This document shows, one piece after another, positions 2,482 through 16,824 of a stretch of 64,000 nt of DNA (position 1 is its first letter; every line of letters starts with the position of its first letter). Position numbers and translations under genes: made by a program. The notes below the pieces were generated by a model that was not told where the DNA came from, made no database searches, and was given only the letters and a program-made list of their open reading frames with translations. This DNA is from Rhodopseudomonas palustris (lineage in GTDB: Bacteria > Pseudomonadota > Alphaproteobacteria > Rhizobiales > Xanthobacteraceae), in contig NZ_CP140155.1 of assembly GCF_034479375.1 (NCBI RefSeq), positions 3,634,501-3,698,500 of the forward strand, given 5' to 3'.

Positions 2482-2904
2482 CGGCATCCTTCGGATCGAC
2501 GGAGGGTGTCGTTCGATGCCGACCCGGGGCTGGACGATGCCGACATCGGCGTTGCGGCGCGAAGCGCGATCGCGCCGTGGCCTTCCGCAGTCCAAGCACC
2601 GATCTCCGCATCCGTTCCGGGGTGCGGTTTTTGATCGCAGATGAATGACCGATCGGGAAGTTGGGGTGGCGGCCTGGGATCGCCGCGCGCGCGGTTGCAC
2701 CGCTCGGCTGCGCGGCGCAACGCCCGGGCCGTCGCGGAGGCCGGGCCGATCCCGCAATCCGCCGTCTTCAGGCCCGCAGCCGCTCCGCCGCAGGGCTCGC
2801 CGAACGATCGTGAAGACGGGGGTGGGCCGGGTCGCTCGGGTTCACGCCGGTCAAGGCGACGTGCACCATTCTCATTCGCGCCGCAGATCGGGGCGCGTCG
2901 ATTC
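2482..2904. other. Intergenic, no supported gene
   Basis: These 423 bases separate the SDR/VKOR gene from the small-ORF pair. Open frames exist on both strands because the GC content is high, but none has a ribosome binding site, recognisable domain or plausible composition. I see no strong terminator or operator here. Confidence 0.5.
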
Positions 2905-3105
2905 TCAGCGCGTCGCGGATGCGGACGCCGACACGCGCAGCGGCGCGGCGCCGCTGCTCAGCCCCAGCTTTCCGGACTCCGCCAGTTCGCGCAGCCGATT
3001 GCGCGCCCACACGCGCATCGCCCGGTCCGAGCGAAGTTCAGCAAGACTGCTCTGATCGATCTGATCGATCCGGTCCGACTCGTGTTGATTGTTCCGACCC
3101 GCCAT
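2905..3105 (-). CDS. Small protein of unknown function, 66 aa
   Basis: The ATG is preceded by a near-perfect Shine-Dalgarno, AGGAGG, seven bases upstream, which is the main reason for calling it. The product is hydrophilic, with an acidic/Gln-rich N-terminus (SDRIDQIDQ) followed by a basic amphipathic helix (RAMRVWARNRLRELAESGK). There is no signal peptide or membrane segment. It follows a 52-codon ORF after a 26-base gap and probably shares its transcript, with a perfect FNR/FixK-type box upstream of both. I do not recognise a family. The start is well supported; the function is unknown. Confidence 0.6.
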   Translation of the reverse strand: MAGRNNQHESDRIDQIDQSSLAELRSDRAMRVWARNRLRELAESGKLGLSSGAAPLRVSASASATR

Positions 3106-3131
3106 CAACTTTCCTCCTGTGTGAACCCGGC

Positions 3132-3290
3132 TCATCGCCGCGCGTCGAGCAGCACGCCTGCTTCGTTGTGACGTGCGACTGCGACCGACTCCTTGCACTG
3201 ATTCACCCCGAAATGGCGGTACAATTCGGGCGCGCTCATCCTGAATAATTCCAAACTGCGAACTAACTCGAATGGCGCGGGGATCGTCAT
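3132..3290 (-). CDS. Small protein of unknown function, 52 aa, behind an FNR/FixK box
   Basis: This ORF starts with MTIPAPFELVRSLE and contains MSAPELYRHFGV, which suggests a short soluble helical protein. There is one cysteine (C32) and no membrane segment. The ATG lies about 57 bases from the centre of the TTGAT-N4-ATCAA box. That puts a transcription start at the usual -41.5 position just upstream of the ATG. No good Shine-Dalgarno is visible, so the gene is less certain than its downstream partner. The family is not recognised. Confidence 0.4.
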   Translation of the reverse strand: MTIPAPFELVRSLELFRMSAPELYRHFGVNQCKESVAVARHNEAGVLLDARR

Positions 3291-3547: not shown

Positions 3548-3595
3548 CGGCTGGAGCGGGCGAAGGGAATCGAACCCTCGTATGCAGCTTGGGAA
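3548..3595 (+). repeat. Distal attachment-site copy (48-bp direct repeat of the tRNA-Gly 3' half)
   Basis: These 48 bases are identical to 5692-5739, which covers the 3' half of the tRNA-Gly gene from the anticodon loop to the CCA end plus four flanking bases. This copy has no tRNA 5' half and cannot make a tRNA. It is the classic footprint of site-specific integration at the 3' end of a tRNA gene. Confidence 0.9.
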
Positions 3596-3896
3596 AACGA
3601 TTTGTAATAAACCGTCCCAAAGGATCGCCTTAGCGCTTTGAGACACTGAGAACGCAGAATGCACGGTCGGCAGCGGTGCTGGTGCTGGTGCCGCTGATCC
3701 TGTGGCGATGCGCGTTCGTCTGCCGACATACGATCGTCACGGGCGTCGAGACCCGCAACCAAAGCCGCGAAGTCGTCCAGATGATCACGGTCAGGCTGAT
3801 CGTCGCGGCACCGAAGCGAGCGCCGGCGCGTCCGGCAGGGCCGGTGGGCGCTGCGGGCCGCAGCGGGTGCACTCCGGAGGGGCCAAGCATGGCATT
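3596..3896. other. Left part of the Fic element, no supported gene
   Basis: A 74-codon plus-strand frame ending at 3900 begins with a hydrophobic run but lacks a ribosome binding site and has a Pro/Ala/Arg tail typical of chance high-GC frames. An 86-codon minus-strand frame overlaps it. Neither resembles an integrase or a known cargo protein. I call nothing here. Confidence 0.4.
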
Positions 3897-4131
3897 TTGA
3901 ACGTTTTACCGTAAGGCTGATTGTTTTCCCGCATTCGATGGCATTTTTGGCAGGCCCGGAATTTCCTTGAACGATTTTCCGCGGATGACCATAATATTGA
4001 ATGTTTTTCCGCAGTCAGCCTTATTGTTGAACGATTTTTTGGGAATCTGAATGTTTTACTGTGAACTCACCTTATCCTGAACGTTTCGCCATCCTGCTGA
4101 ACGATTTTCCGCCCCGGGCGCCGGTTTTGAA
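3897..4131 (+). repeat. Array of degenerate 15-16 bp repeats with 10-bp-quantised spacing
   Basis: Nine copies of a unit with consensus YTGAAYGWTTTTCCG start at 3897, 3917, 3967, 3997, 4027, 4047, 4077, 4097 and 4127 (the last truncated to its first bases). The intervals are 20, 50, 30, 30, 20, 30, 20 and 30 bp, all exact multiples of ten, so every copy lies nearly on the same face of the helix. The longer 30-bp units share an extra block resembling TCAnCTTAT that the 20-bp units lack. The array ends at the Shine-Dalgarno of the Fic gene. Likely roles are a multi-site operator or an iteron/arm-site array; this is inference. Confidence 0.7.
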
Positions 4132-4144
4132 CAAGGAGTTCCAC

Positions 4145-5635
4145 TTGCAGGACCAGAGCTTAGGTCAACTCCGCCTCCATGAGATGCTGGAGCTCGACGT
4201 ACCGAAGCCCCACGTGCGCTCGACGGCGGTCCGTGGCAACCGTCGAACCATCGAGGGACAGGATGCACTGATCGAACAGTTTCCTCCCCGGTACGTCCCG
4301 CAAGACACCGCGATCGACCATCTCAAGTTCGCGCTACGTCACGAACCGCTGGACATGGGAGTCCTGACTGCCGCCCTCAAGGCGATGCCGAAGCAGGACA
4401 TCGAGACCTGGATCAAGTCCGAGCCGACCGGCGCCTTCTCGCGGCGGGCATGGTTTCTCTATGAGACGCTGACCGGCGACACGCTCGACATCGAAGACGC
4501 CGGCGCGGTGACGTACGTCGACGCCTTAGATCCCGAACGGCACATCGTCGCGAACGGCGCGCGATCGCGCAGGCACAAGGTGACGGACAATCTCCTCGGA
4601 GCGCCCGGCTTCTTCCTCACCGTCCGGCGGACCGCGAAGATCCAGCAGCACATCGCGGAGAAGCTCGACGAAGTCGCGAAGGCTTACACAGAGAAGGTGC
4701 CCGCCGAGACGCTGAAGCGGGCCGTGCAGTACCTGTACACGAAGGAAACGAAATCCTCCTTCGAGATCGAACACGAAAGGCCGACGCCGGAGAAGGCACG
4801 GCGCTTCATCGCCGCGCTCGAGCAGGGCGAAAAGTTCGACCCGACCGACGAGAAGGGTCTCATCGCGCTTCAGAATGAGATCGTCGACCCGAGATACGCC
4901 GCCTCGGACGTCCGCGATTTCCAGAACTTCGTGGGCGAAACGCTCGGCTCGCACCGGGAGAAGGTGCATTTCGTCTGCCCGAAACCGAAGGACGTGAAGC
5001 CTCTGATGTCGGACTGGAGGAAGATGACCGCGCGCCTCAAGCAGGACGCAGAGCCCGTCACCGCGGCGGCGCTGATCGCCTTCACGTTCGTCTTCATCCA
5101 TCCGTTCGAGGACGGAAACGGCCGTATCCACCGTTTTCTCATCCATCACGTGCTGTCGTCCCAGCACTACACGCCCAAAGGAATCATCTTTCCGGTCTCG
5201 GCGGCGATCCTGCGCAACATCAAGGAGTACGACACGGCCCTCGAAAGCTACTCGAATCCGCTTCTCGCGCACGTCAAGTACAGGATGACGCCGAAGAACG
5301 AAGTCGAGGTCTTGAACGAGACAGCGCACCTCTACCGGTACTTCGACGCGACCCGTTTCGTCGAATACCTCTACGACAAGCTTGCGGAGACGATCGCCAC
5401 CGACCTCAAGGAGGAAGTCGAGTTCGTCGAGAAGTTCGACCGTGCCTACACCGCGGTGACGAACCAGATCGACATGCCGAACAGGCGCGCGTCGTTGTTC
5501 GTCGGCCTCTGCATGCAGAACGCCGGAAAGCTATCAAAGAAGAAACGCGAGCAGTTTCCCGAGTTGACCGACGATGAGATCACGATGCTCGAGGAAGCCA
5601 TCGAGGAAACGCTGGCGGAACGCGATGAGGCCTAG
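4145..5635 (+). CDS. Fic-family protein (putative AMP-/nucleotidyl-transferase), 496 aa
   Basis: The Fic core HPFEDGNGRIHR is complete, with catalytic H319, N325 and the nucleotide-binding arginines. The N-terminal part has the features usual in this large Fic subfamily (SRRAWFLYE; SRRHKVTDNLLG). It also has the element matching the autoinhibitory helix (S/T)xxxE(G/N), here SFEIEH at 205-210: the Glu is kept but the Gly is His. I place the start at TTG 4145 because AAGGAG sits six bases upstream. An upstream ATG at 4061 would translate through the repeat array and has no ribosome binding site. Such enzymes attach AMP or other nucleotide moieties to target proteins. The target is unknown. It is the only gene in its element. 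Confidence 0.85.
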   Translation: MQDQSLGQLRLHEMLELDVPKPHVRSTAVRGNRRTIEGQDALIEQFPPRYVPQDTAIDHLKFALRHEPLDMGVLTAALKAMPKQDIETWIKSEPTGAFSRRAWFLYETLTGDTLDIEDAGAVTYVDALDPERHIVANGARSRRHKVTDNLLGAPGFFLTVRRTAKIQQHIAEKLDEVAKAYTEKVPAETLKRAVQYLYTKETKSSFEIEHERPTPEKARRFIAALEQGEKFDPTDEKGLIALQNEIVDPRYAASDVRDFQNFVGETLGSHREKVHFVCPKPKDVKPLMSDWRKMTARLKQDAEPVTAAALIAFTFVFIHPFEDGNGRIHRFLIHHVLSSQHYTPKGIIFPVSAAILRNIKEYDTALESYSNPLLAHVKYRMTPKNEVEVLNETAHLYRYFDATRFVEYLYDKLAETIATDLKEEVEFVEKFDRAYTAVTNQIDMPNRRASLFVGLCMQNAGKLSKKKREQFPELTDDEITMLEEAIEETLAERDEA

Positions 5636-5691
5636 CCCTCCGGACCGGTACCGCACGGCCCCAGGGAAGTGCCCTATTTCTTGGGGAAAAT

Positions 5692-5739
5692 CGGCTGGAG
5701 CGGGCGAAGGGAATCGAACCCTCGTATGCAGCTTGGGAA
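5692..5739 (+). repeat. Proximal attachment-site copy within tRNA-Gly
   Basis: This is the right-hand copy of the 48-bp direct repeat. It overlaps the 3' half of tRNA-Gly(CCC), so the tRNA gene stays intact after integration. Confidence 0.9.
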
Positions 5740-5769
5740 GCTGCCGTTCTACCATTGAACTACGCCCGC
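5696..5769 (-). tRNA. glyU: tRNA-Gly (CCC anticodon)
   Basis: The 74 bases fold as a standard cloverleaf: acceptor stem GCGGGCG/CGCCCGC, D arm, anticodon stem GCAGC/GCTGC with loop TTCCCAA, T arm with TTCGATT, discriminator T and an encoded CCA. The loop gives anticodon CCC, which reads GGG glycine codons. Its 3' half is the integration target of the Fic element. Confidence 0.95.
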
Positions 5770-9936: not shown

Positions 9937-10182
9937 GCAATCCGGCCTTCCATGCGCGCTTGTGCGGCCGTTCTTCGCTAACACGTCTCACAAGCAATCC
10001 GGCGTTGCTAGCTGCTGCGAATTACCACAACAATTCGGCGGCTTGTACTTCGCAGCCCATTAACCTGTCGCCGTTACAACAACCGCTTCGAACGGCCGAT
10101 GGAATCTATGCGATTGCGCGCAGGATGACATAACGCGACGCCGTCGCGTCGCTCTGGATGGCCGCGCAAGAGGGCCTGTCCC

Positions 10183-12162
10183 ATGACTCATCACCTTCCG
10201 TCACCTGCGCCGTCGAGCCGGCTGCTCTCCACCCGCCGCGCGTTTCTGCAATCATCCGCGGCCTTCATCGGCGCGCTGTCCCTCGGCCCGACGCTCGGCG
10301 CGCCGGCATGGGGCCGCGAACTGCCGCGCTACCCGATCGCGACGCCGGCCGAGACGACCGTGAAGCAGATGCTGGCGTTCCCGGCGACGATCGAGCCCGG
10401 CCTGGCGAAGACCGCGCTGCATCAGGTCGCGCGCTACAAGGACTTCGGCTATGGCGAATGGACGCTGGGCTCCGGCCTGCCGATCGTGACGCGCGCCGAC
10501 CTGATGCGAGCCGGCTACCAAAAGCCGGCGCCCGGCGAGAACAAGCGTCTGATCCGGTTTTTCGCGTTCACCGACGTCCACATCACCGACAAGGAAGCGC
10601 CCAACCAGCTGATCGGATTCCAGCAGACCGAACCGGAGGCGGTGAACAACACCTCGATCTATTCGCCGGTGATGCCGTATACGACGCAGGTGCTGGATGC
10701 GGCGGTGCAGACCGTCAACGACCTGCACAGCCGCGACCCGTTCGATTTCGGCATCGCGCTCGGAGACGCCTGCAACAGCACGTCCTACAATGAAGTGCGC
10801 TGGTATATCGACGTGATCGACGGCCGGCCGATCACGCCGAGCTCCGGCGACCATCGCGGCCGCGACAGCGTCGACTTCCAGATGCCGTTTCAGGCCGCCG
10901 GGCTCGCCCGCGATATTCCCTGGTATCAGGTCCTCGGCAACCACGATCATTTCATGATCGGATCGTTTCCGGTCGACGCCGATCCGTCGATCGGCCTGCG
11001 CCAGTCCTACACGGCCGACAGGATCTGGGCGGTCGGCGACGTGCTGAAACCGAATCGCGAAGGCTTCCCGGCGCTGTTCGACTATCGCGGCCTGAAGGCC
11101 ACGCCGGCGTACTATCCGGGGGTGATCGACGGCACGAGCCGCTATGGCGCGATCATCCATGCCGGCCGCGCCGACGATCCGGCCTTCGCCGGCAAGCCAC
11201 CGCAGATCGCGCCCGATCCCGGCCGCCGTCCGCTGGCGCGCGCCGAATGGCTCGCCGAGTTCCGCGACACCACGACCCGTCCGAAGGGGCACGGCTTCGA
11301 TCTGGTCGACGGCGCCGGCGACGGCTTCGCCTGCTACAGCTTCGTGCCGAAATCCGATCTGCCGCTGAAGGTGATCGTGCTCGACGTCACGCAGTCCGAA
11401 CAGGACGGCTCGCGCGACATCCACGGCCACGGCTTTCTCGATGCCAGGCGCTGGGACTGGCTGAAGATGGAGCTGGCGCGCGGCCAGGCCGAGGATCAGT
11501 TGATGATCATCGCCAACCATATTCCGATCGGCGTGTCGCCGATCGGCTCCGAAATGGAATGGTGGCTGGGCGACGCCAATGCGGCGCCTGATTTTGCCAA
11601 CGCCGTCGACCTCGCCGGCCTGGTGAAGACGCTGCAGACTGCGCCGAACCTGCTGATGTGGATCGCCGGGCATCGCCATGTGAATGTGGTGAAGGCGTTT
11701 CCGTCCACCGACCCGGACCGGCCGGAGCAAGGCTTCTGGCAGGTCGAGACCTGCTCGCTACGCGACTTTCCGCAGCAATTCCGGACTTTCGAGATCTCGC
11801 TGAACGCGGACTACACGGTGTCGATCGAGGCGGTGAATATCGACGTCGCGGCCGCGGATGGAACGCCGGCGGCGCAATCGCGCAAATACGCCATCGCCAC
11901 CCAGCAGATCATCCAGAACGACCTGCGGCCCAACAGCCCGAACTACGCGACCGCCGGCGGCAAGATTCCGGTACCGAGCATGGACCCGACGCGGCCGCAA
12001 AGCGACGACCCCAAAGCCACCGATCCGTCGATCCGGTTCGTCGATCTGACGAGCGCGGACAAGCCGGTCCAGTATCATGCGTCGAGCAATGTCGAGCTGC
12101 TGAAACAGCTCAGCCCGCGGATGGTCGAGGTGCTGAAGCGGACGGTGGCGGTGCGAAAGTAG
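10183..12162 (+). CDS. Tat-exported metallophosphoesterase (TIGR03768 / RPA4764-like family), 659 aa
   Basis: A twin-arginine signal, STRRAFLQSSAAF (R18-R19), marks it for folded export by Tat. The metallophosphoesterase core is visible: D131 and H133 in FTDVHITDKE, a GDACNS block, GNHDHF, and a late histidine pair in WIAGHRHVN. At 659 residues it is longer than ordinary calcineurin-like enzymes but matches the family I recall as TIGR03768. It probably hydrolyses phosphate esters in the periplasm, which fits a window rich in phosphate genes. The substrate is unknown. Confidence 0.85.
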   Translation: MTHHLPSPAPSSRLLSTRRAFLQSSAAFIGALSLGPTLGAPAWGRELPRYPIATPAETTVKQMLAFPATIEPGLAKTALHQVARYKDFGYGEWTLGSGLPIVTRADLMRAGYQKPAPGENKRLIRFFAFTDVHITDKEAPNQLIGFQQTEPEAVNNTSIYSPVMPYTTQVLDAAVQTVNDLHSRDPFDFGIALGDACNSTSYNEVRWYIDVIDGRPITPSSGDHRGRDSVDFQMPFQAAGLARDIPWYQVLGNHDHFMIGSFPVDADPSIGLRQSYTADRIWAVGDVLKPNREGFPALFDYRGLKATPAYYPGVIDGTSRYGAIIHAGRADDPAFAGKPPQIAPDPGRRPLARAEWLAEFRDTTTRPKGHGFDLVDGAGDGFACYSFVPKSDLPLKVIVLDVTQSEQDGSRDIHGHGFLDARRWDWLKMELARGQAEDQLMIIANHIPIGVSPIGSEMEWWLGDANAAPDFANAVDLAGLVKTLQTAPNLLMWIAGHRHVNVVKAFPSTDPDRPEQGFWQVETCSLRDFPQQFRTFEISLNADYTVSIEAVNIDVAAADGTPAAQSRKYAIATQQIIQNDLRPNSPNYATAGGKIPVPSMDPTRPQSDDPKATDPSIRFVDLTSADKPVQYHASSNVELLKQLSPRMVEVLKRTVAVRK

Positions 12163-12214
12163 TCGCGATCACGGACCGGATGATTTCCTCACCGGTTCGG
12201 ACTATACTCGGGCC

Positions 12215-12589
12215 ATGCACGATGCGGTCGCCGATATTGCAGAGGACGTGCGGCTTCGAGAAGCCGTGCGGCGCCTCGTGGCCGCGGCGCCGGTCGAGGA
12301 AATCATCCTGTTCGGCAGCCGCGCCCGCGGCGACCACACCGAGGACAGCGATTTCGACCTGTGCGTCATCCTGAATGACGATATCGCACCCGGGGCATTC
12401 ACCCCGGTCTCGCTTTGGGAACCGATTTCAGACCTCGGCCTGCCGATCCAGATCGTGCCGCTGCGCCGCGGCCGGTTCGAGGCTGCCAGGCGTGATCCGA
12501 GCACGATCAGCTTCCAGATCGACCGCGAGGGGCGGACGATCTATGCCGATAGTTGCGTCAACGTGCTTCACGGAAGGAAGCAGTTGTGA
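12215..12589 (+). CDS. MNT-domain nucleotidyltransferase (antitoxin-type), 124 aa
   Basis: The minimal nucleotidyltransferase signature GSx10DxD is exact: G34-S35, then D46 and D48 in GSRARGDHTEDSDFD. The short length and the overlapping downstream gene match MNT/HEPN toxin-antitoxin modules, in which the MNT protein adenylylates and silences the HEPN partner. Its TGA stop overlaps the GTG start of that gene, so translation is coupled. A C-terminal fragment of a related MNT gene is at 9638-9739. Confidence 0.85.
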   Translation: MHDAVADIAEDVRLREAVRRLVAAAPVEEIILFGSRARGDHTEDSDFDLCVILNDDIAPGAFTPVSLWEPISDLGLPIQIVPLRRGRFEAARRDPSTISFQIDREGRTIYADSCVNVLHGRKQL

Positions 12590-13089
12590 ACCTTCAACTG
12601 CTGGCCGCTGAAGAGGAGATCGATCGATCTCCACCGATCGCCATTTTGCTATCTGCTGAGTCATTCTTGAAATCAGCCCAGCACCTAAGAAACGGAACTG
12701 TGTCGGGGAATCTCAAACTCAGATTTGAGATGCCAGTATATTACTTGTACTCCCATGCGATCGAGCTTGCGCTGAAGAGTTTCCTTCGGACAAAAGGCTT
12801 CGATATGAAACAGCTTTCGTCAAGGAAGTACGGCCACCAACTGAACGTACTTTGGGACGAATGTCTTAAGCACGGTCTGAAGCTTCATCCAATTCGGAGA
12901 GATTGCACTGAGCAGCTTATCGAGCTTCTGGATCCTTTTGCCACAAGATACGAGTTTCGCTACGTGATCACTGGATTTAAGCAACTGCCTCAGCTCCACG
13001 CTGTTGATGCGGAAGTTACAAGCCTGATTGCCTCGGTCAAACTTGATGTTGAGACCCACCTCAGACAGGGCAACAGCGTCACACCTTGA
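12586..13089 (+). CDS. HEPN-like protein, putative partner/toxin of the MNT protein, 167 aa
   Basis: GTG 12586 is chosen because GGAAGGAAG lies five bases upstream and the start overlaps the MNT stop (GTGA). The helical pattern YLYSHAIELALKSFLRTKG followed by RKYGHQLNVL resembles the HEPN fold, where a conserved Arg and His form an RNase site. Here the pair is R80-x3-H84, one residue shorter than the usual Rx4-6H, so catalysis is uncertain. The gene is clearly lower in GC than its neighbours, which suggests horizontal transfer. Its last 11 bases overlap the dCTP deaminase gene on the other strand. Confidence 0.7.
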   Translation: MNLQLLAAEEEIDRSPPIAILLSAESFLKSAQHLRNGTVSGNLKLRFEMPVYYLYSHAIELALKSFLRTKGFDMKQLSSRKYGHQLNVLWDECLKHGLKLHPIRRDCTEQLIELLDPFATRYEFRYVITGFKQLPQLHAVDAEVTSLIASVKLDVETHLRQGNSVTP

Positions 13090-14200
13090 AATGCTTGCTC
13101 AGCTTCAGGCTCTGGCCCTGATAGTTCGAGCCGATCTTCTGGCCGTATAGCGCGTCGGGGCGGGACAGCATCTTTTCGTAGATCAGGCGGCCGACGATCT
13201 GGCCGTGTTCGAGGATGAACGGCACCTCGCGCGAGCGCACTTCCAGCACCGCGCGCGAGCCGAGGCCGCCGGCGCCCTCGTAGCCGAAGCCGGGATCGAA
13301 GAAGCCGGCGTAGTGCACGCGGAATTCTCCGACCAAGGGATCGAACGGCACCATCTCGGCGGCGTAGTCCGGCGGCACCTGGACGGCCTCTTTTGAAGCG
13401 AGGATGTAGAACTCGCCGGGGTCGAGGATCAGCGTGCCATCGGGACGTGCGGCGATCGGCTCCCAGAATTCGCCGACCGCGTAGCCGCCGCGACGATCGA
13501 TATCGACCACGCCGGTGTGGCGCTTGGCGCGGTAGCCGACGAAGCCGTTCGAATTGCTCCCGGACAGATCGACGCTGAGCGCGACGCCGCCATTGAGATC
13601 GGCGTCGTCGGCGTCGACCAGCCGCTCGGCGTCGTGCAGCGCATCAAGCTCGTCCTGCTCCAGCGTGGCATGTCCGGCGCGGAAGCGAACCTGCGACAGC
13701 CGCGAGCCCTCGCGCAGCAGCACCGGGAAGGTCTTCGGGCTGATCTCGGCGTAAAGCGGGCCGTGATAGCCGGCGCCGATCATGTCGAAACGTCTCGTTC
13801 CGTCGGCGATGACGCGGGTGAACACGTCGAGTCGCCCGGTCGAGCTCTTCGGATTGGCGGCGGCGACGATATTGCGCGGCAGCGCCAGGCTCTCCAGCAG
13901 CGGCACGATGTAGACGCAGTTGGTCTCCAGCACGGCGCCGTCCGACAGGTCGATCTCGTGCAGCTTCAATTCATCGATCCGCTCGGCCACCGTGCAGTCC
14001 GGCCCCGGCAGGAAGCTGGCGCGGACCCGATAGGCGATGCCGCCGAGCCGCAGATCGAGGCTGGCGGGCTGGATCTGGCTCTCGACGAACGGATATTCCG
14101 GCAGGATCAGCCCGGCCTCGGCCATCGCCGCGATCATGCGGTCGGGCAGGATTCCATCGGCATCGGGCGGCAACGCGAACGGCACGGCGGCGATCCTCAC
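13079..14200 (-). CDS. dcd: dCTP deaminase, double-domain form, 373 aa
   Basis: The N-terminal half has the Dcd/dUTPase-fold signatures ESQIQPASLDLRLG and NPKSSTGRLDVF. The C-terminal half has a second, diverged copy of the fold (YRAKRHTGVVDIDRRG; LDPGEFYILASKE; HYAGFFDPGFGY). Ordinary Dcd is about 190 residues, so this is a tandem-domain version, which I recall as common in this group. Dcd converts dCTP to dUTP for thymidylate synthesis. The start is the first ATG of the frame and the conserved IQPASLDLR falls at the expected distance. It faces the HEPN-like gene tail to tail. Confidence 0.85.
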   Translation of the reverse strand: MRIAAVPFALPPDADGILPDRMIAAMAEAGLILPEYPFVESQIQPASLDLRLGGIAYRVRASFLPGPDCTVAERIDELKLHEIDLSDGAVLETNCVYIVPLLESLALPRNIVAAANPKSSTGRLDVFTRVIADGTRRFDMIGAGYHGPLYAEISPKTFPVLLREGSRLSQVRFRAGHATLEQDELDALHDAERLVDADDADLNGGVALSVDLSGSNSNGFVGYRAKRHTGVVDIDRRGGYAVGEFWEPIAARPDGTLILDPGEFYILASKEAVQVPPDYAAEMVPFDPLVGEFRVHYAGFFDPGFGYEGAGGLGSRAVLEVRSREVPFILEHGQIVGRLIYEKMLSRPDALYGQKIGSNYQGQSLKLSKHFKV

Positions 14201-14300
14201 GGCGGCCGCGCGGCCGCCAGACGCGGAAAATACTGGATTTCATCGGTTATCCGATGGCCGGCTTGACGGGAAGTCCGCGGAGGATTATGAGCCCGACTTA

Positions 14301-14364
14301 TCCCGTGGTGATTTGAGCCGGCCGGCTTGCAGCCACGTTAAACAAGTCGCTAAACAGGCCGGGG
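14301..14364 (+). promoter_or_regulatory. SAM-II riboswitch (metZ leader)
   Basis: The RNA has the SAM-II layout: P1 CGTGG/CCACG (14304-14308 with 14333-14337), the conserved TGATTTG loop, the GCTTGCAGCC segment and the downstream pseudoknot strand GCTAAACAGG. It lies about 85 bases before metZ. SAM-II aptamers bind S-adenosylmethionine and shut off methionine biosynthesis genes, notably metA and metZ in alphaproteobacteria. Confidence 0.9.
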
Positions 14365-14375
14365 ACAATGTGATC

Positions 14376-14410
14376 CCGGCTTGTGGAAATTTTTCCAGGC
14401 CGGTTTTTTT
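14376..14410 (+). terminator. Intrinsic terminator after the SAM-II aptamer
   Basis: A CCGGC...GCCGG stem extended by TGGAAA/TTTCCA is followed by seven T residues ending at 14410, just before the metZ ribosome binding site. It is placed to act as the expression platform. The preceding GGCCGGGG at the aptamer 3' end could pair with part of the stem as an antiterminator (inference). Confidence 0.8.
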
Positions 14411-14449
14411 GTGCCCGCACCGCCAGGTGTGGTCACGAATGGAGACCAC

Positions 14450-15691
14450 ATGTCCGAGACCAATACGCCCGATTCCAGCACGCCCGCCCCGAAGCCCTCG
14501 ATCGCCATCCCCGACACCGCGCATTTTCGCCGCGAGACCCGGCTGGTGCATTCCGGCAGCCTGCGCTCGCAATATGGCGAGACCTCAGAGGCGCTGTTTC
14601 TCACCCAGGGCTTCGTCTACGACAGCGCCGAGCAGTGCGAGGCGCGCTTCACCGGCGACGATGCCGGCTTCCAATATTCGCGCTTCTCCAATCCGACGGT
14701 GTTCAGCTTCGAGCAGCGGATGGCGGAATTCGAGGGCGCCGAAGCCGCGCGCGCCACCGCCACCGGCATGGCCGCGGTGACCGCCGCGATGCTGGCGCCG
14801 CTGCGCGCCGGCGATCACGTCGTGGCCTCGAAGGCGATGTTCGGCTCGTGCCGCTACGTGGTCGAGGACCTGCTGCCGCGCTACGGCATCGAATCGACGC
14901 TGGTCGACGGCCTCGACCTCGACCAGTGGCAGAAGGCGCTGCGCCCCAACACCAGGACCTGCTTCCTCGAGAGCCCGACCAATCCGACGCTCGACGTGCT
15001 CGACATCGGCGCGATCGCCGAAATCGCACATGCGGGCGGCGCGCGGCTGGTCGTCGACAACGTGTTCGCGACGCCGATCTGGCAGAGCCCGCTCGAACTC
15101 GGCGCCGACGTCGTGGTGTACTCCGCCACCAAGCACATCGACGGCCAGGGCCGCTGTCTCGGCGGCGTGGTGCTGTCGTCGCAGGCGTTCATCGAAGAGC
15201 ACATCCAGATGTATCTGCGCCAGACCGGACCGTCGCTGTCGCCGTTCAACGCCTGGGTGCTGCTGAAGGGGCTGGAGACGCTGGCGGTGCGCGTCCGGGC
15301 GCAGACCGAGACGGCGGCGGCGATCGCCGATGCGCTGGCCGGCCATCCGAAAATCCCGCGGCTGGTCTATCCCGGCCGCGCCGACCATCCGCAGGCCGCG
15401 ACCGTGAAGAAGCAGATGGGCGCCGGCTCGACGCTGATCGGCTTCGAGGTCGCGGGCGGCAAGGCCGAGGCGTTCCGCTTCCTGAATGCGCTGAAGCTGA
15501 TCCGGATCAGCAACAATCTCGGCGACGCCAAGAGCCTGGTCACGCATCCGGCGACGACGACCCATCAGCGGCTGAAGCCGGAAGCGCGCGCCGAACTCGG
15601 CATCAGCGAAGGCTTCATCCGCTACTCGGTCGGCCTCGAGCACAAGGACGACCTGATCGAGGACATCGTCGCCGCGCTGGAGAAGGTGTAG
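14450..15691 (+). CDS. metZ: O-succinylhomoserine sulfhydrylase, 413 aa
   Basis: This Cys/Met-metabolism PLP enzyme makes homocysteine from O-succinylhomoserine and sulfide. PLP signatures include YSATKHIDGQGRCLGGV with the Schiff-base lysine, ESPTNPTLDVLDI and YSRFSNPTV. The ATG 14450 has GGAG five bases upstream; an in-frame ATG at 14381 falls inside the terminator hairpin and is rejected. Regulation is by the SAM-II riboswitch and terminator. The riboswitch context favours metZ over a generic cystathionine synthase assignment. Confidence 0.93.
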   Translation: MSETNTPDSSTPAPKPSIAIPDTAHFRRETRLVHSGSLRSQYGETSEALFLTQGFVYDSAEQCEARFTGDDAGFQYSRFSNPTVFSFEQRMAEFEGAEAARATATGMAAVTAAMLAPLRAGDHVVASKAMFGSCRYVVEDLLPRYGIESTLVDGLDLDQWQKALRPNTRTCFLESPTNPTLDVLDIGAIAEIAHAGGARLVVDNVFATPIWQSPLELGADVVVYSATKHIDGQGRCLGGVVLSSQAFIEEHIQMYLRQTGPSLSPFNAWVLLKGLETLAVRVRAQTETAAAIADALAGHPKIPRLVYPGRADHPQAATVKKQMGAGSTLIGFEVAGGKAEAFRFLNALKLIRISNNLGDAKSLVTHPATTTHQRLKPEARAELGISEGFIRYSVGLEHKDDLIEDIVAALEKV

Positions 15692-15718
15692 TAAGCGCCG
15701 CACGCTGCCGTACACGAG

Positions 15719-15832
15719 ACGTCATTGCCGGGCTCGACCCGGCAATCCACCTTTCTTCGCAAAAGCACTCAGGATCCACGATCCCGCCCGCTCCGCGGGC
15801 GATGGATGCCCGGGTCGAGCCCGGGCATGACG
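15719..15832. repeat. Dispersed palindromic repeat, family D (GTCATTGCCGGGCTCGACCCGGC type)
   Basis: Two linked palindromes, CGTCATTGCCGGGCTCGACCCGGCAA and ATGCCCGGGTCGAGCCCGGGCAT, sit between the convergent metZ and SGNH genes. Relatives occur at 26705-26812, 42618-42825 and 54078-54330. Confidence 0.7.
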
Positions 15833-15873
15833 GCTGCGGATGCGCGGCGCGGCTCGCGTTGCGGCGCAGCGCC

Positions 15874-16824
15874 TCACATCGGCCGATAGGCGCGGACGTC
15901 GGACGGCACGGTGACGCCGAGCTTGATCTGGCCGACCGAGCGGATGATGTCGTCGCCGAGCAGTTGGGCGAAGCAGGCGTAGCCCCAATCGTTCATGTGC
16001 AGGCCGTCGGCGATGACGAAATCGTCGAACGGCAGCGCCTGCTTTTCGTGCCACTCCTTCATCACCTGAAAGCGCGGGAAGATCGCGACCCGGCGCAGCT
16101 CGGCGAGCCGGCCGAGTGCGGCGATCATCTTGCCGGCGCTCTCGGCGCGCTCGTTGACCCGCGGCGCGTATTGCGGATCGACCAGCACCACGTCGGACCC
16201 CGCCGCCTGGATCGCCGCGATGCCCTCCTCGACCAGCCGGCCGGTCTCGGCCGGATCGAGATTGCGCAGGATGGCGTTGGTGCCGACCTGCCAGATCACC
16301 AGATCGGGCTTGGCGTCGAGCACGGTGGCCTTCAGCCGCGCCATCATCTCGGGCGCGTCCTCGCCACCCTTGCCGCTGTTGATCACGCTGATGTCGGCGC
16401 CCGGGTATTGCCGGCGCAGCCGCTCGGCCAGACGGTTCGGATAGTTGTTCGCCGGCGAACTGGAGCCGTAGCCCTGGGTCGACGACGAGCCGAACGCCAC
16501 GATCACCACCGGCTGGCCGGCGATCAGCTTGCGGGCGACGTGGGGCAGCGAGCCCATCGACTTGCCGCCGCCTTTCGGCGCCAGGCAGGGCACCCGCGTC
16601 AGCACGTCGCCGGCCTGCTTGGCCGCCTGCTTGACCCGGTCGATGGTCTGGCCGGCGATGCCCTTCTGGCCGGCGTCGCGCGCCGGCGCGGCGGGGGAGG
16701 CCGCGGCCGGGGCCGGATCCGAGGGCGGCTGCGGCGCCTGCGCGCGCGCGCCCGACAACGCCATCCCGAGCAGCATCGCTGCCGACGCCAGGCCGGCGGC
16801 GAGCTTCACGCAACTTCGACTCAT
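15874..16824 (-). CDS. SGNH/GDSL-type hydrolase, exported, 316 aa
   Basis: A signal peptide (VKLAAGLASAAMLLGMALSGARA) is followed by a Pro/Ala linker and an SGNH fold. All catalytic blocks are visible: nucleophile serine in GSSST (112-116), block III GTN with N183, and D273-x2-H276 in ADGLHMND. Such enzymes act as esterases or acyltransferases/deacylases on exported glycans. The ATG at 16824 overlaps the TGA of the upstream SGNH gene by one base, so it is the last gene of the opgC operon. A role in modifying periplasmic glucans is inferred from that context. Confidence 0.82.
   Translation of the reverse strand: MSRSCVKLAAGLASAAMLLGMALSGARAQAPQPPSDPAPAAASPAAPARDAGQKGIAGQTIDRVKQAAKQAGDVLTRVPCLAPKGGGKSMGSLPHVARKLIAGQPVVIVAFGSSSTQGYGSSSPANNYPNRLAERLRRQYPGADISVINSGKGGEDAPEMMARLKATVLDAKPDLVIWQVGTNAILRNLDPAETGRLVEEGIAAIQAAGSDVVLVDPQYAPRVNERAESAGKMIAALGRLAELRRVAIFPRFQVMKEWHEKQALPFDDFVIADGLHMNDWGYACFAQLLGDDIIRSVGQIKLGVTVPSDVRAYRPM

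Follow-up and report, generated by a model that had tools for sequence, protein, structure and literature searches.

An integrase-less unit of repeat array and PDC-S24 Fic gene between copies of a tRNA-Gly(CCC) 3' half in Rhodopseudomonas palustris

How does a unit of about 2.1 kb come to lie between two copies of a tRNA 3' half when it carries no recognised recombinase, and what does its single recognised gene do there? This question is raised by a locus in a 64,000-nucleotide stretch of the Rhodopseudomonas palustris contig NZ_CP140155.1 (positions 3,634,501 to 3,698,500), which we refer to as the window. A first-pass annotation had described there a perfect 48-bp duplication of the tRNA-Gly(CCC) 3' half around one Fic gene and a repeat array, with no integrase, and our analyses bear out this layout. 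The answer that we favour, at slightly better than an even chance, is that the unit is a mini-island bracketed by attachment (att)-like sites and lacking an integrase, similar to a cis-mobilizable element (CIME), that its cargo is the array plus the fic gene, that the Fic protein is self-inhibited and self-repressed, and that the unit arrived by means of a borrowed recombinase. The integrase-less, att-bracketed mini-island is the ordinary part, matching the CIMEs of the sections of PMC7563491 used here apart from descent from an integrative and conjugative element (ICE) or an integrative and mobilizable element (IME). The unusual part is that such insertions recur with one Fic family, whose phased array of boxes resembles a private self-operator.

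The two 48-bp copies are identical at 48 of 48 positions and offset by 2144 bp. They extend from the anticodon loop of tRNA-Gly(CCC), the single tRNA that ARAGORN detected in the window, to 4 nt beyond the tRNA 3' end (Table 1). The region from the anticodon loop to just past the 3' end of a tRNA gene is the classical crossover zone of tyrosine integrases, and a perfect repeat of 48 bp in such a place does not arise by chance. Most of the 2.1-kb element is occupied by the Fic gene, the only gene recognised inside it; no other open reading frame (ORF) with a recognised domain was found, the remaining ORFs of at least 60 aa being at most 86 aa long or overlapping the Fic gene in other frames, and these were not scanned with Pfam. 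Neither were integrase, primase or packaging genes of a P4-like or other phage satellite recognised in the element. A search of the whole 5.3-Mb genome with the tyrosine recombinase profile PF00589 gave three matches, all of them outside the element and none close to it. All three proteins are Xer-like: one scores above the NCBIfam XerD cut-off (331.6 versus 329.6), and the other two score best with XerC yet below its cut-off (306.3 and 222 versus 335.15). A dedicated island-type tyrosine integrase was thus not found genome-wide with PF00589, serine recombinases lying outside the genome-wide search, and a partner integrase elsewhere in the genome, for which the first-pass annotation had proposed to look, did not turn up in it.

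Table 1. Coordinates of the features of the element and its attachment site in the window
Feature	Position	Strand	Basis or remark
Distal copy of the tRNA-Gly(CCC) 3' half (att-like end)	3548..3595	-	48/48 match to 5692-5739; far-side chromosomal block (window 2838-3261) follows the distal copy in G001 too
5' part of the unit	3740..3897	+	Inside stretch 3740-3982, common to G005 at ~75% (blastn)
Phased direct-repeat array, 15-bp boxes, best copies TGAAYGWTTTNCCG	3898..4112	+	Pattern without exact match elsewhere in the genome; equivalent arrays before homologues
Promoter-like pair TTGAAC-17-CATAAT	3967..3995	+	First hexamer overlaps the 3968 box; consensus scan only, weak
Fic protein, 496 aa, PADLOC PDC-S24	4145..5635	+	ORF open from GTG 4061; TTG 4145 is the probable start; G005 orthologue 94% identical
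Proximal 48-bp copy, all but 4 bases within the intact tRNA	5692..5739	-	48/48 match to 3548-3595
tRNA-Gly(CCC), intact	5696..5769	-	ARAGORN; Rfam tRNA 5699-5769, E 3e-15

In the sections of PMC7563491 on which we draw, CIMEs have att sites and cargo, lack recombination and conjugation genes, and range from 1.2 kb upward. The element of the window resembles them in its flanking tRNA repeats, which are putative att sites, in its single cargo gene, and in that no recombination, conjugation or mobilization gene was recognised and no PF00589 match lies inside, its small ORFs being unscanned. The first-pass annotation was right that the integrase is absent; this is less unusual than it had suggested, since CIMEs with att sites and no integrase are already described in that part of the literature. 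The element differs from them in that its units recur at different tRNA genes with one gene family; its descent from an ICE or IME by deletion is no more than possible.

The Fic protein carries the Pfam Fic domain (PF02661, E 4e-16) and matches the full-length PADLOC profile PDC-S24 with 605.9 bits (profile positions 4-492 of 497, residues 9-499 of a 502-aa reading). PDC-S24 is a phage defence candidate, a database entry without a description, and the name was not found in the literature that we searched (one open-access library). The likely start codon would be preceded by AAGGAG at positions 4133-4138. The FIC motif, HPFEDGNGRIHR, lies at residues 319-330; HPFx[DE]GN[GK]R is the motif of Fic AMP-transferases. 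Residues H319, D323, G324, N325, G326 and R327, together with Glu209, are invariant in all 90 aligned members of PDC-S24, and the protein is predicted to be an AMP-transferase. The "potentially toxic nucleotidyltransferase" of the first-pass annotation agrees with this prediction in its enzymatic half, its toxicity remaining potential only.

Class II Fic proteins have an N-terminal inhibitory motif [ST]xxxE[GN]. The corresponding motif in the window protein is SSFEIEH, located N-terminal to the Fic core and containing S205 and E209. The form of the family is SSFxIEG, with the Glu present in 90 of 90 members and the final position being G in 62, N in 10 and H in 8 of them, and hhalign places it on SSEIEN of SoFic, which we take to be the inhibitory motif of class II Fic proteins. 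The window protein resembles SoFic, an anti-phage protein of class II, in that the Fic core and the inhibitory motif align; it differs in scoring far below the NCBIfam cut-off for SoFic (NF046030; 33.1 versus 550 bits), so that it does not belong to SoFic, in having no counterpart of the SoFic C-terminal part, and in that some SoFic promoters show, by eye, inverted repeats near the start codon. The classes of Fic proteins are described in the part of PMC12249575 consulted here. We propose that the AMP-transferase would be held off by its own N-terminal inhibitory helix (SSFEIEH, Glu209), and a self-inhibited Fic protein would explain the absence of an accompanying antitoxin gene. Phage infection or a similar stress may then release the protein, and the cell would be stopped, as in abortive defence.

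At the cut-offs used, homologues were found in 27 of 397 genomes at the level of the order, 32 of 385 at that of the class and 35 of 398 at that of the phylum, the own genome being counted once in each of the three sets, as well as in 260 plasmid records. Carriage by phages amounts to one weak match among 50,697 phage records and 12 loci in viral contigs, four of which were inspected. Among 8,000 candidates scored, at least 6,928 were homologues at E <= 0.001, not all of which need be PDC-S24. A role of the Fic protein in phage defence is probable, judged from family membership, and a neighbouring restriction-modification (RM) system gives it modest support: in Deinococcus psychrotolerans, the PDC-S24 gene is flanked by genes annotated as the S and R subunits of a type I RM system, one on each side. 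At another locus, L239 (G1022, 10162-16356), a second Fic gene with a Fic_N domain was seen near the PDC-S24 unit, between ORFs that by eye resemble an RM pair.

We then turn to the tRNA-Gly(CCC) site in the genus. The stretch containing the tRNA and the neighbouring MGMT gene was matched in all 16 genus genomes. The gap on the opposite side of the tRNA measures ~100 bp in G002, ~13.7 kb in G013, ~24.7 kb in G012 and 128 kb in G001; G002 thus has a near-empty site, with the ~100 bp lying between the chromosomal flank and the tRNA. The first-pass annotation had proposed to look for larger islands with the same ends, and the 128-kb insert of G001 comes close to this. Its far end carries a perfect 48-bp copy, its tRNA-side copy has one mismatch over 44 aligned bases, and beyond its distal copy lies the block 2838-3261 of the window, as beyond the distal copy of the window itself. 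The same flanking block and the matching 48-bp copy indicate that the element and the G001 insert lie between the same flanks with nearly the same ends. The 2.1-kb interior has no match in the inserts of G001, G012 and G013 or in the searched stretches of other relatives, except for one match of 35 bp in G001. A derivation of the element from the G001 island by deletion was tested and rejected on this ground, and so the internal deletion of a larger island that the first-pass annotation had considered is not what we see for G001. Nor is the sequence fixed in all relatives, the other possibility that it had raised, as the Fic gene is present at the tRNA-Gly(CCC) site in 2 of the 16 genus genomes, namely the window genome and G005. 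A third genus genome, G004, has a Fic gene (40% identical) at a different location. In G005 the Fic unit lies at the same tRNA and its Fic DNA is 94.6% identical over 4098-5652, versus 80.8-89.5% for the flank blocks of more than 1 kb. The closer similarity of the Fic DNA and its presence in 2 of 16 genomes point to a recent sharing of the unit rather than to old vertical inheritance.

Other arrangements were seen at this site. In G004 (C44:184080-184225) and G015 (C22:1414195-1414334) the tRNA-Gly stretch is flipped with respect to the MGMT gene beside it. In G020 (C1:976294-977933, L063), ~1.5 kb with two ORFs lacking a Pfam match separate tRNA-Gly(CCC) from an 85% partial copy. In G018 (C14:41784-82965, L064 and L065), a copy of the tRNA-Gly(CCC) 5' half lies ~41 kb away and adjoins a tyrosine integrase; this is an island that uses the same tRNA-Gly(CCC) gene in another way.

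The layout of the window recurs with other members of the family. We searched 94 PDC-S24 loci for repeats that match exactly over 18 bp or more and flank the gene, one copy on each side, using flanks of up to 1.5 kb for most loci. Bracketing repeats were found at 12 of the 94 loci (11 of 93 without the window), not counting L196, L235 and L214, which were left out as duplicated genes or dispersed repeats (L235 is flanked on either side by LysR-type genes); including them would raise the count to 15 of 94. In controls, such repeats were found in 23 of 1500 random windows, mostly from Rhodopseudomonas, and in none of 1500 windows around other Fic units, the latter being overlapping windows of 14 regions and not independent draws. 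Three of the bracketing repeats are tRNA 3' ends. Besides the 48-bp repeat of the window, these are a 23-bp repeat at a tRNA-Met in G644 (unit of 1751 bp) and a 24-bp repeat at a tRNA-Phe in G813 (unit of 1713 bp, adjoining an ORF that by eye is dapF-like), both ending at CCA. A weak motif scan, which missed the integrase-like protein of L241, flagged no recombinase-like ORF in the ~8 kb to each side of these two units. The Fic gene is directed towards the tRNA in the window but has the tRNA behind it in G644 and G813, and this difference in orientation argues against one ancestral island. The nine other bracketing repeats are not derived from tRNA genes; they measure 79 and 163 bp in two cases and 27-37 bp in seven, with identities of 84-100%, and some of the units are not gene-only (that of L238 includes a second ORF of 205 aa). 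A tRNA lies in the examined stretch at 10 of the 94 loci, including the window and G005, a number that has no matched control and that we did not use as evidence.

To see how often related units share a site, we compared pairs of loci whose Fic DNA could be aligned over more than 1 kb and which had 600 bp of flank to either side, leaving out plasmid loci and L150 and L154, which have truncated genes. A shared flank was found in 7 of 374 pairs, in 5 of 27 at an identity of the Fic DNA of at least 75% and in 5 of 8 at an identity of at least 84%. Hence, the closest relatives often share a site and more distant ones almost never do. In one pair, L126 and L127 (G197 and G219), the upstream flank is common and the downstream flank is not, with the divergence at the Fic stop codon, i.e., a breakpoint at the 3' end of the unit. 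PDC-S24 genes also occur near recombinases: ~3 kb from a tyrosine integrase in the IMG/VR contig of L256; beside an integrase-like protein with arm and middle domains, near a Toprim protein, in that of L262; near an integrase-like protein with arm and middle domains and a tRNA-Met in G1000 (L241); and, in G427 (L249), close to both a serine recombinase and a tRNA-Gln. Loci of this kind make travel as cargo on satellites or islands a natural way to move. We propose that the unit would have reached the tRNA through a site-specific recombinase encoded by another element that is now absent. Repeat-bracketed units in unrelated genomes offer a way to study the movement of defence genes that bring no recombinase with them.

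Several results count against such an arrival. An exact empty site of the element, which the first-pass annotation had proposed to seek, was not found among the 16 genus genomes, the near-empty site of G002 being the part of that proposal that was realised; nor was an excised circle seen; a larger insert with the same far end does exist, in G001; no distal repeat was detected in G005 at the thresholds used; and one 399-bp piece of flank is 92.7% identical to G005. Moreover, of the eight other tRNA-adjacent loci, just two have a long copy of the tRNA tail (23-24 nt), one has a copy of 12 nt and five have none, also in the wider flanks where these were fetched, and one of nine SoFic loci (L219) has a bracketing repeat of at least 23 bp.

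The strongest competitor, which has a considerable chance short of even, is that tRNA-Gly(CCC) was first entered by a larger satellite or ICE encoding its own integrase, which was then stripped of all but the Fic cargo that selection kept, leaving a CIME by deletion. The site is indeed a hotspot, with the large inserts of G001, G012 and G013, the first sharing the 48-bp far end; PDC-S24 genes do lie near recombinases at the four loci named above; and CIMEs of 1.2-13 kb are documented in the cited sections of PMC7563491. This account is less at ease with the interior, which has no homology to the three inserts beyond the 35-bp match, and with the two other tRNA sites, where the unit is nearly gene-only, the Fic stop codon being 25 bp (G644) and 87 bp (G813) from the repeat. 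The flank comparison cuts both ways: 22 of 27 pairs at an identity of at least 75% lack a shared flank, but most pairs at an identity of at least 84% have one. We lean slightly towards arrival as a small unit over shrinkage in place.

A bolder alternative, which we regard as unlikely, is that the array and fic together are a distinct minimal mobile element, in which the gene product would read its own phased array and the unit would use borrowed recombination to move among sites, tRNA 3' ends included, with the Fic-array complex perhaps aiding capture or retention. Less probable again is insertion of the unit without any site-specific recombinase, by recombination with a long target duplication, as RM systems are reported to do with long, variable duplications in the part of PMC3031569 seen here. 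The PDC-S24 units resemble those cases in being small gene units between direct repeats without a transposase, and nine of the repeats lie outside tRNA genes. They differ in being one-gene Fic units with tRNA 3'-end repeats in three cases: the repeats of the window, G644 and G813 end at, or at most 4 nt from, the tRNA 3' end, as integrases leave them. Some of the long repeats could be unrelated old duplications.

The second component of the favoured reading is control of the Fic gene by the array. In the window, boxes start at positions 3898, 3918, 3968, 3998, 4028, 4048, 4078 and 4098, with spacings of 20, 50, 30, 30, 20, 30 and 20 bp, and a ninth, decayed box can be seen by eye near 3948. 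The box pattern has four exact matches in the 5.3-Mb genome, all in the array; allowing one mismatch adds 10 matches, two of them in the array. A promoter consensus scan of the region gave two sites, versus 0.4 expected.

The array is a trait of the PDC-S24 family. The test set consisted of 60 other PDC-S24 loci (26 from the order set, 29 from the class set, the one of G004 and four from plasmids), with three loci having truncated upstream regions left out. For each, a self-comparison was made of the region reaching at most 420 bp upstream of the gene start, with 10 bp added, and a pair had to have at least 10 of 12 identical positions. Pairs at a spacing of 20 bp were found in 34 of 60 upstream regions, versus 2 of 53 downstream regions and 1.0 expected from shuffles, and further peaks of upstream spacing lie at 29-30, 49-50, 69-70 and 98-100 bp. 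Any of the spacings 20, 21, 29-31 and 49-51 was present at 51 of 60 loci, versus 13 of 53 downstream regions and 6.4 in shuffles (maximum 12 in 100 shuffles). The clearest arrays, those of L129, L134 and L172, alternate spacings of 20 and 29-30 bp, the same grammar as in the window. A spacing of 19-21, 28-31 or 48-51 bp also occurs at 9 of 10 plasmid loci, four of the nine having just one such spacing; three of the plasmid loci are already in the set of 60, and the others include Deinococcus psychrotolerans, Adhaeribacter and a comamonad. The same holds for 14 of 23 loci outside the class (L195-L217), a count made without a shuffle control. No report of such an array was found in the literature searched. 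The repeat array noted in the first-pass annotation is real; what had been missed is that it belongs to a trait of the Fic family.

Box type follows the Fic clade and not the host. By counts of core sequences upstream of 62 loci, boxes were assigned to class A (TTTCA[TCG], 36 loci), class B (TTTCGA, 11 loci) or class C (a looser set, six loci), with nine unclear. On a maximum-likelihood tree of 53 Fic proteins (46 with a box label), box class changes three times; the minimum is two, the mean after shuffling is 13.2, and none of 200 shuffles was as low. The class-C label outside its clade (L181) stems from two matches of the loose pattern, and no array was detected there. The host families f1, f24, f41 and f126 each contain more than one box class, and G195 carries one class-A and one class-B Fic gene, each with matching boxes upstream. 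A global regulator as the reader of the boxes is disfavoured, the pattern having no exact match elsewhere in the genome and G195 having two box types. The agreement of box type with Fic clade is in keeping with a private operator that Fic itself reads, and the simplest reading would be that each Fic protein reads its own boxes. The promoter-like pair of Table 1 overlaps the 3968 box, and occupancy of the box would therefore repress. We thus propose that Fic may bind the phased boxes over its own promoter, and that this self-repression would keep it scarce. If the boxes are bound on one face of the DNA, their spacing would correspond to ~9.9 bp per turn instead of 10.5, which would suggest wrapped or overwound DNA. 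A conserved, alternating 20/29-30-bp array that tracks the Fic clade would give a handle on the control of the PDC-S24 family.

A precedent for the proposed self-repression is CccR of Yersinia pseudotuberculosis, described in the sections of PMC9755527 used here as a Fic protein that represses its own promoter and whose C-terminal helix-turn-helix (HTH) binds one inverted repeat of 10 bp with a 26-bp spacer. PDC-S24 differs in having long direct-repeat arrays and no HTH recognisable in sequence-based Pfam scans. At three SoFic loci (L219, L220 and L226), inverted repeats are visible by eye near the start codon. These would suggest self-control by palindromic operators, and they fit the inverted-repeat operator of CccR.

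Against control and defence by a self-regulating Fic protein stand the following. Pfam searches on 90 members revealed no DNA-binding domain: they gave the Fic domain and marginal matches, none of them an HTH. The specificity of the array test is imperfect: one or more of the spacings 20, 29, 30, 49 and 50 bp occur at 51 of 62 PDC-S24 loci but also at 8 of the 64 ORFs of the window that reach 300 aa, and 5 of 9 SoFic loci show a pair spacing, in all cases 29 or 30 bp, with none of the nine having a spacing of 20, 49 or 50 bp. Nine of the 60 PDC-S24 loci lack any of the main spacings. The last residue of the window's inhibitory motif is H instead of G or N, as in 8 of 90 members with the window included; the C-terminal part of SoFic does not align with PDC-S24 in hhalign; and the defence role derives from the family label PDC-S24.

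Direct-repeat arrays with helical spacing are typical of recombinase and transposase element ends, and the array might accordingly be read as arm-type sites or element ends rather than as the fic operator. The unit does seem to move, as this would require. However, the arrays precede PDC-S24 genes in unrelated contexts, whether on a plasmid, a chromosome or a contig, the 20-bp pairs lie upstream and hardly ever downstream of the gene, and box type follows the Fic clade, which makes this reading very improbable. That the array acts as a repeat antitoxin RNA like those of type III toxin-antitoxin systems is the least credible reading, since its place directly upstream of a toxin-like gene and a fold better than that of shuffles (z -2.56, for one sequence folded without a covariation test) are set against an alternation of 20 and 29-30 bp that fits turns of DNA and not a tandem unit, and against an Rfam search that found only the tRNA and one match far below the gathering score in the region. 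A known RNA was rejected on the same Rfam result.

Two further stretches deserve mention. Elsewhere in the own genome (G000:C1:1884304-1908373, L009 and L010), a second tRNA-Gly-like stretch, 74 nt long, is partly repeated 24 kb away (41 nt, 93%); the DNA between the two contains, by eye, arsenite-oxidase and two-component-like ORFs and has no PF00589 match. Next to the element, positions 178-2634 of the window (minus strand) hold a single ORF that combines epimerase, SPW and VKOR domains. Between the same neighbours, G012 and G001 lack the segment from about -90 to 2830, which is therefore probably another insertion.

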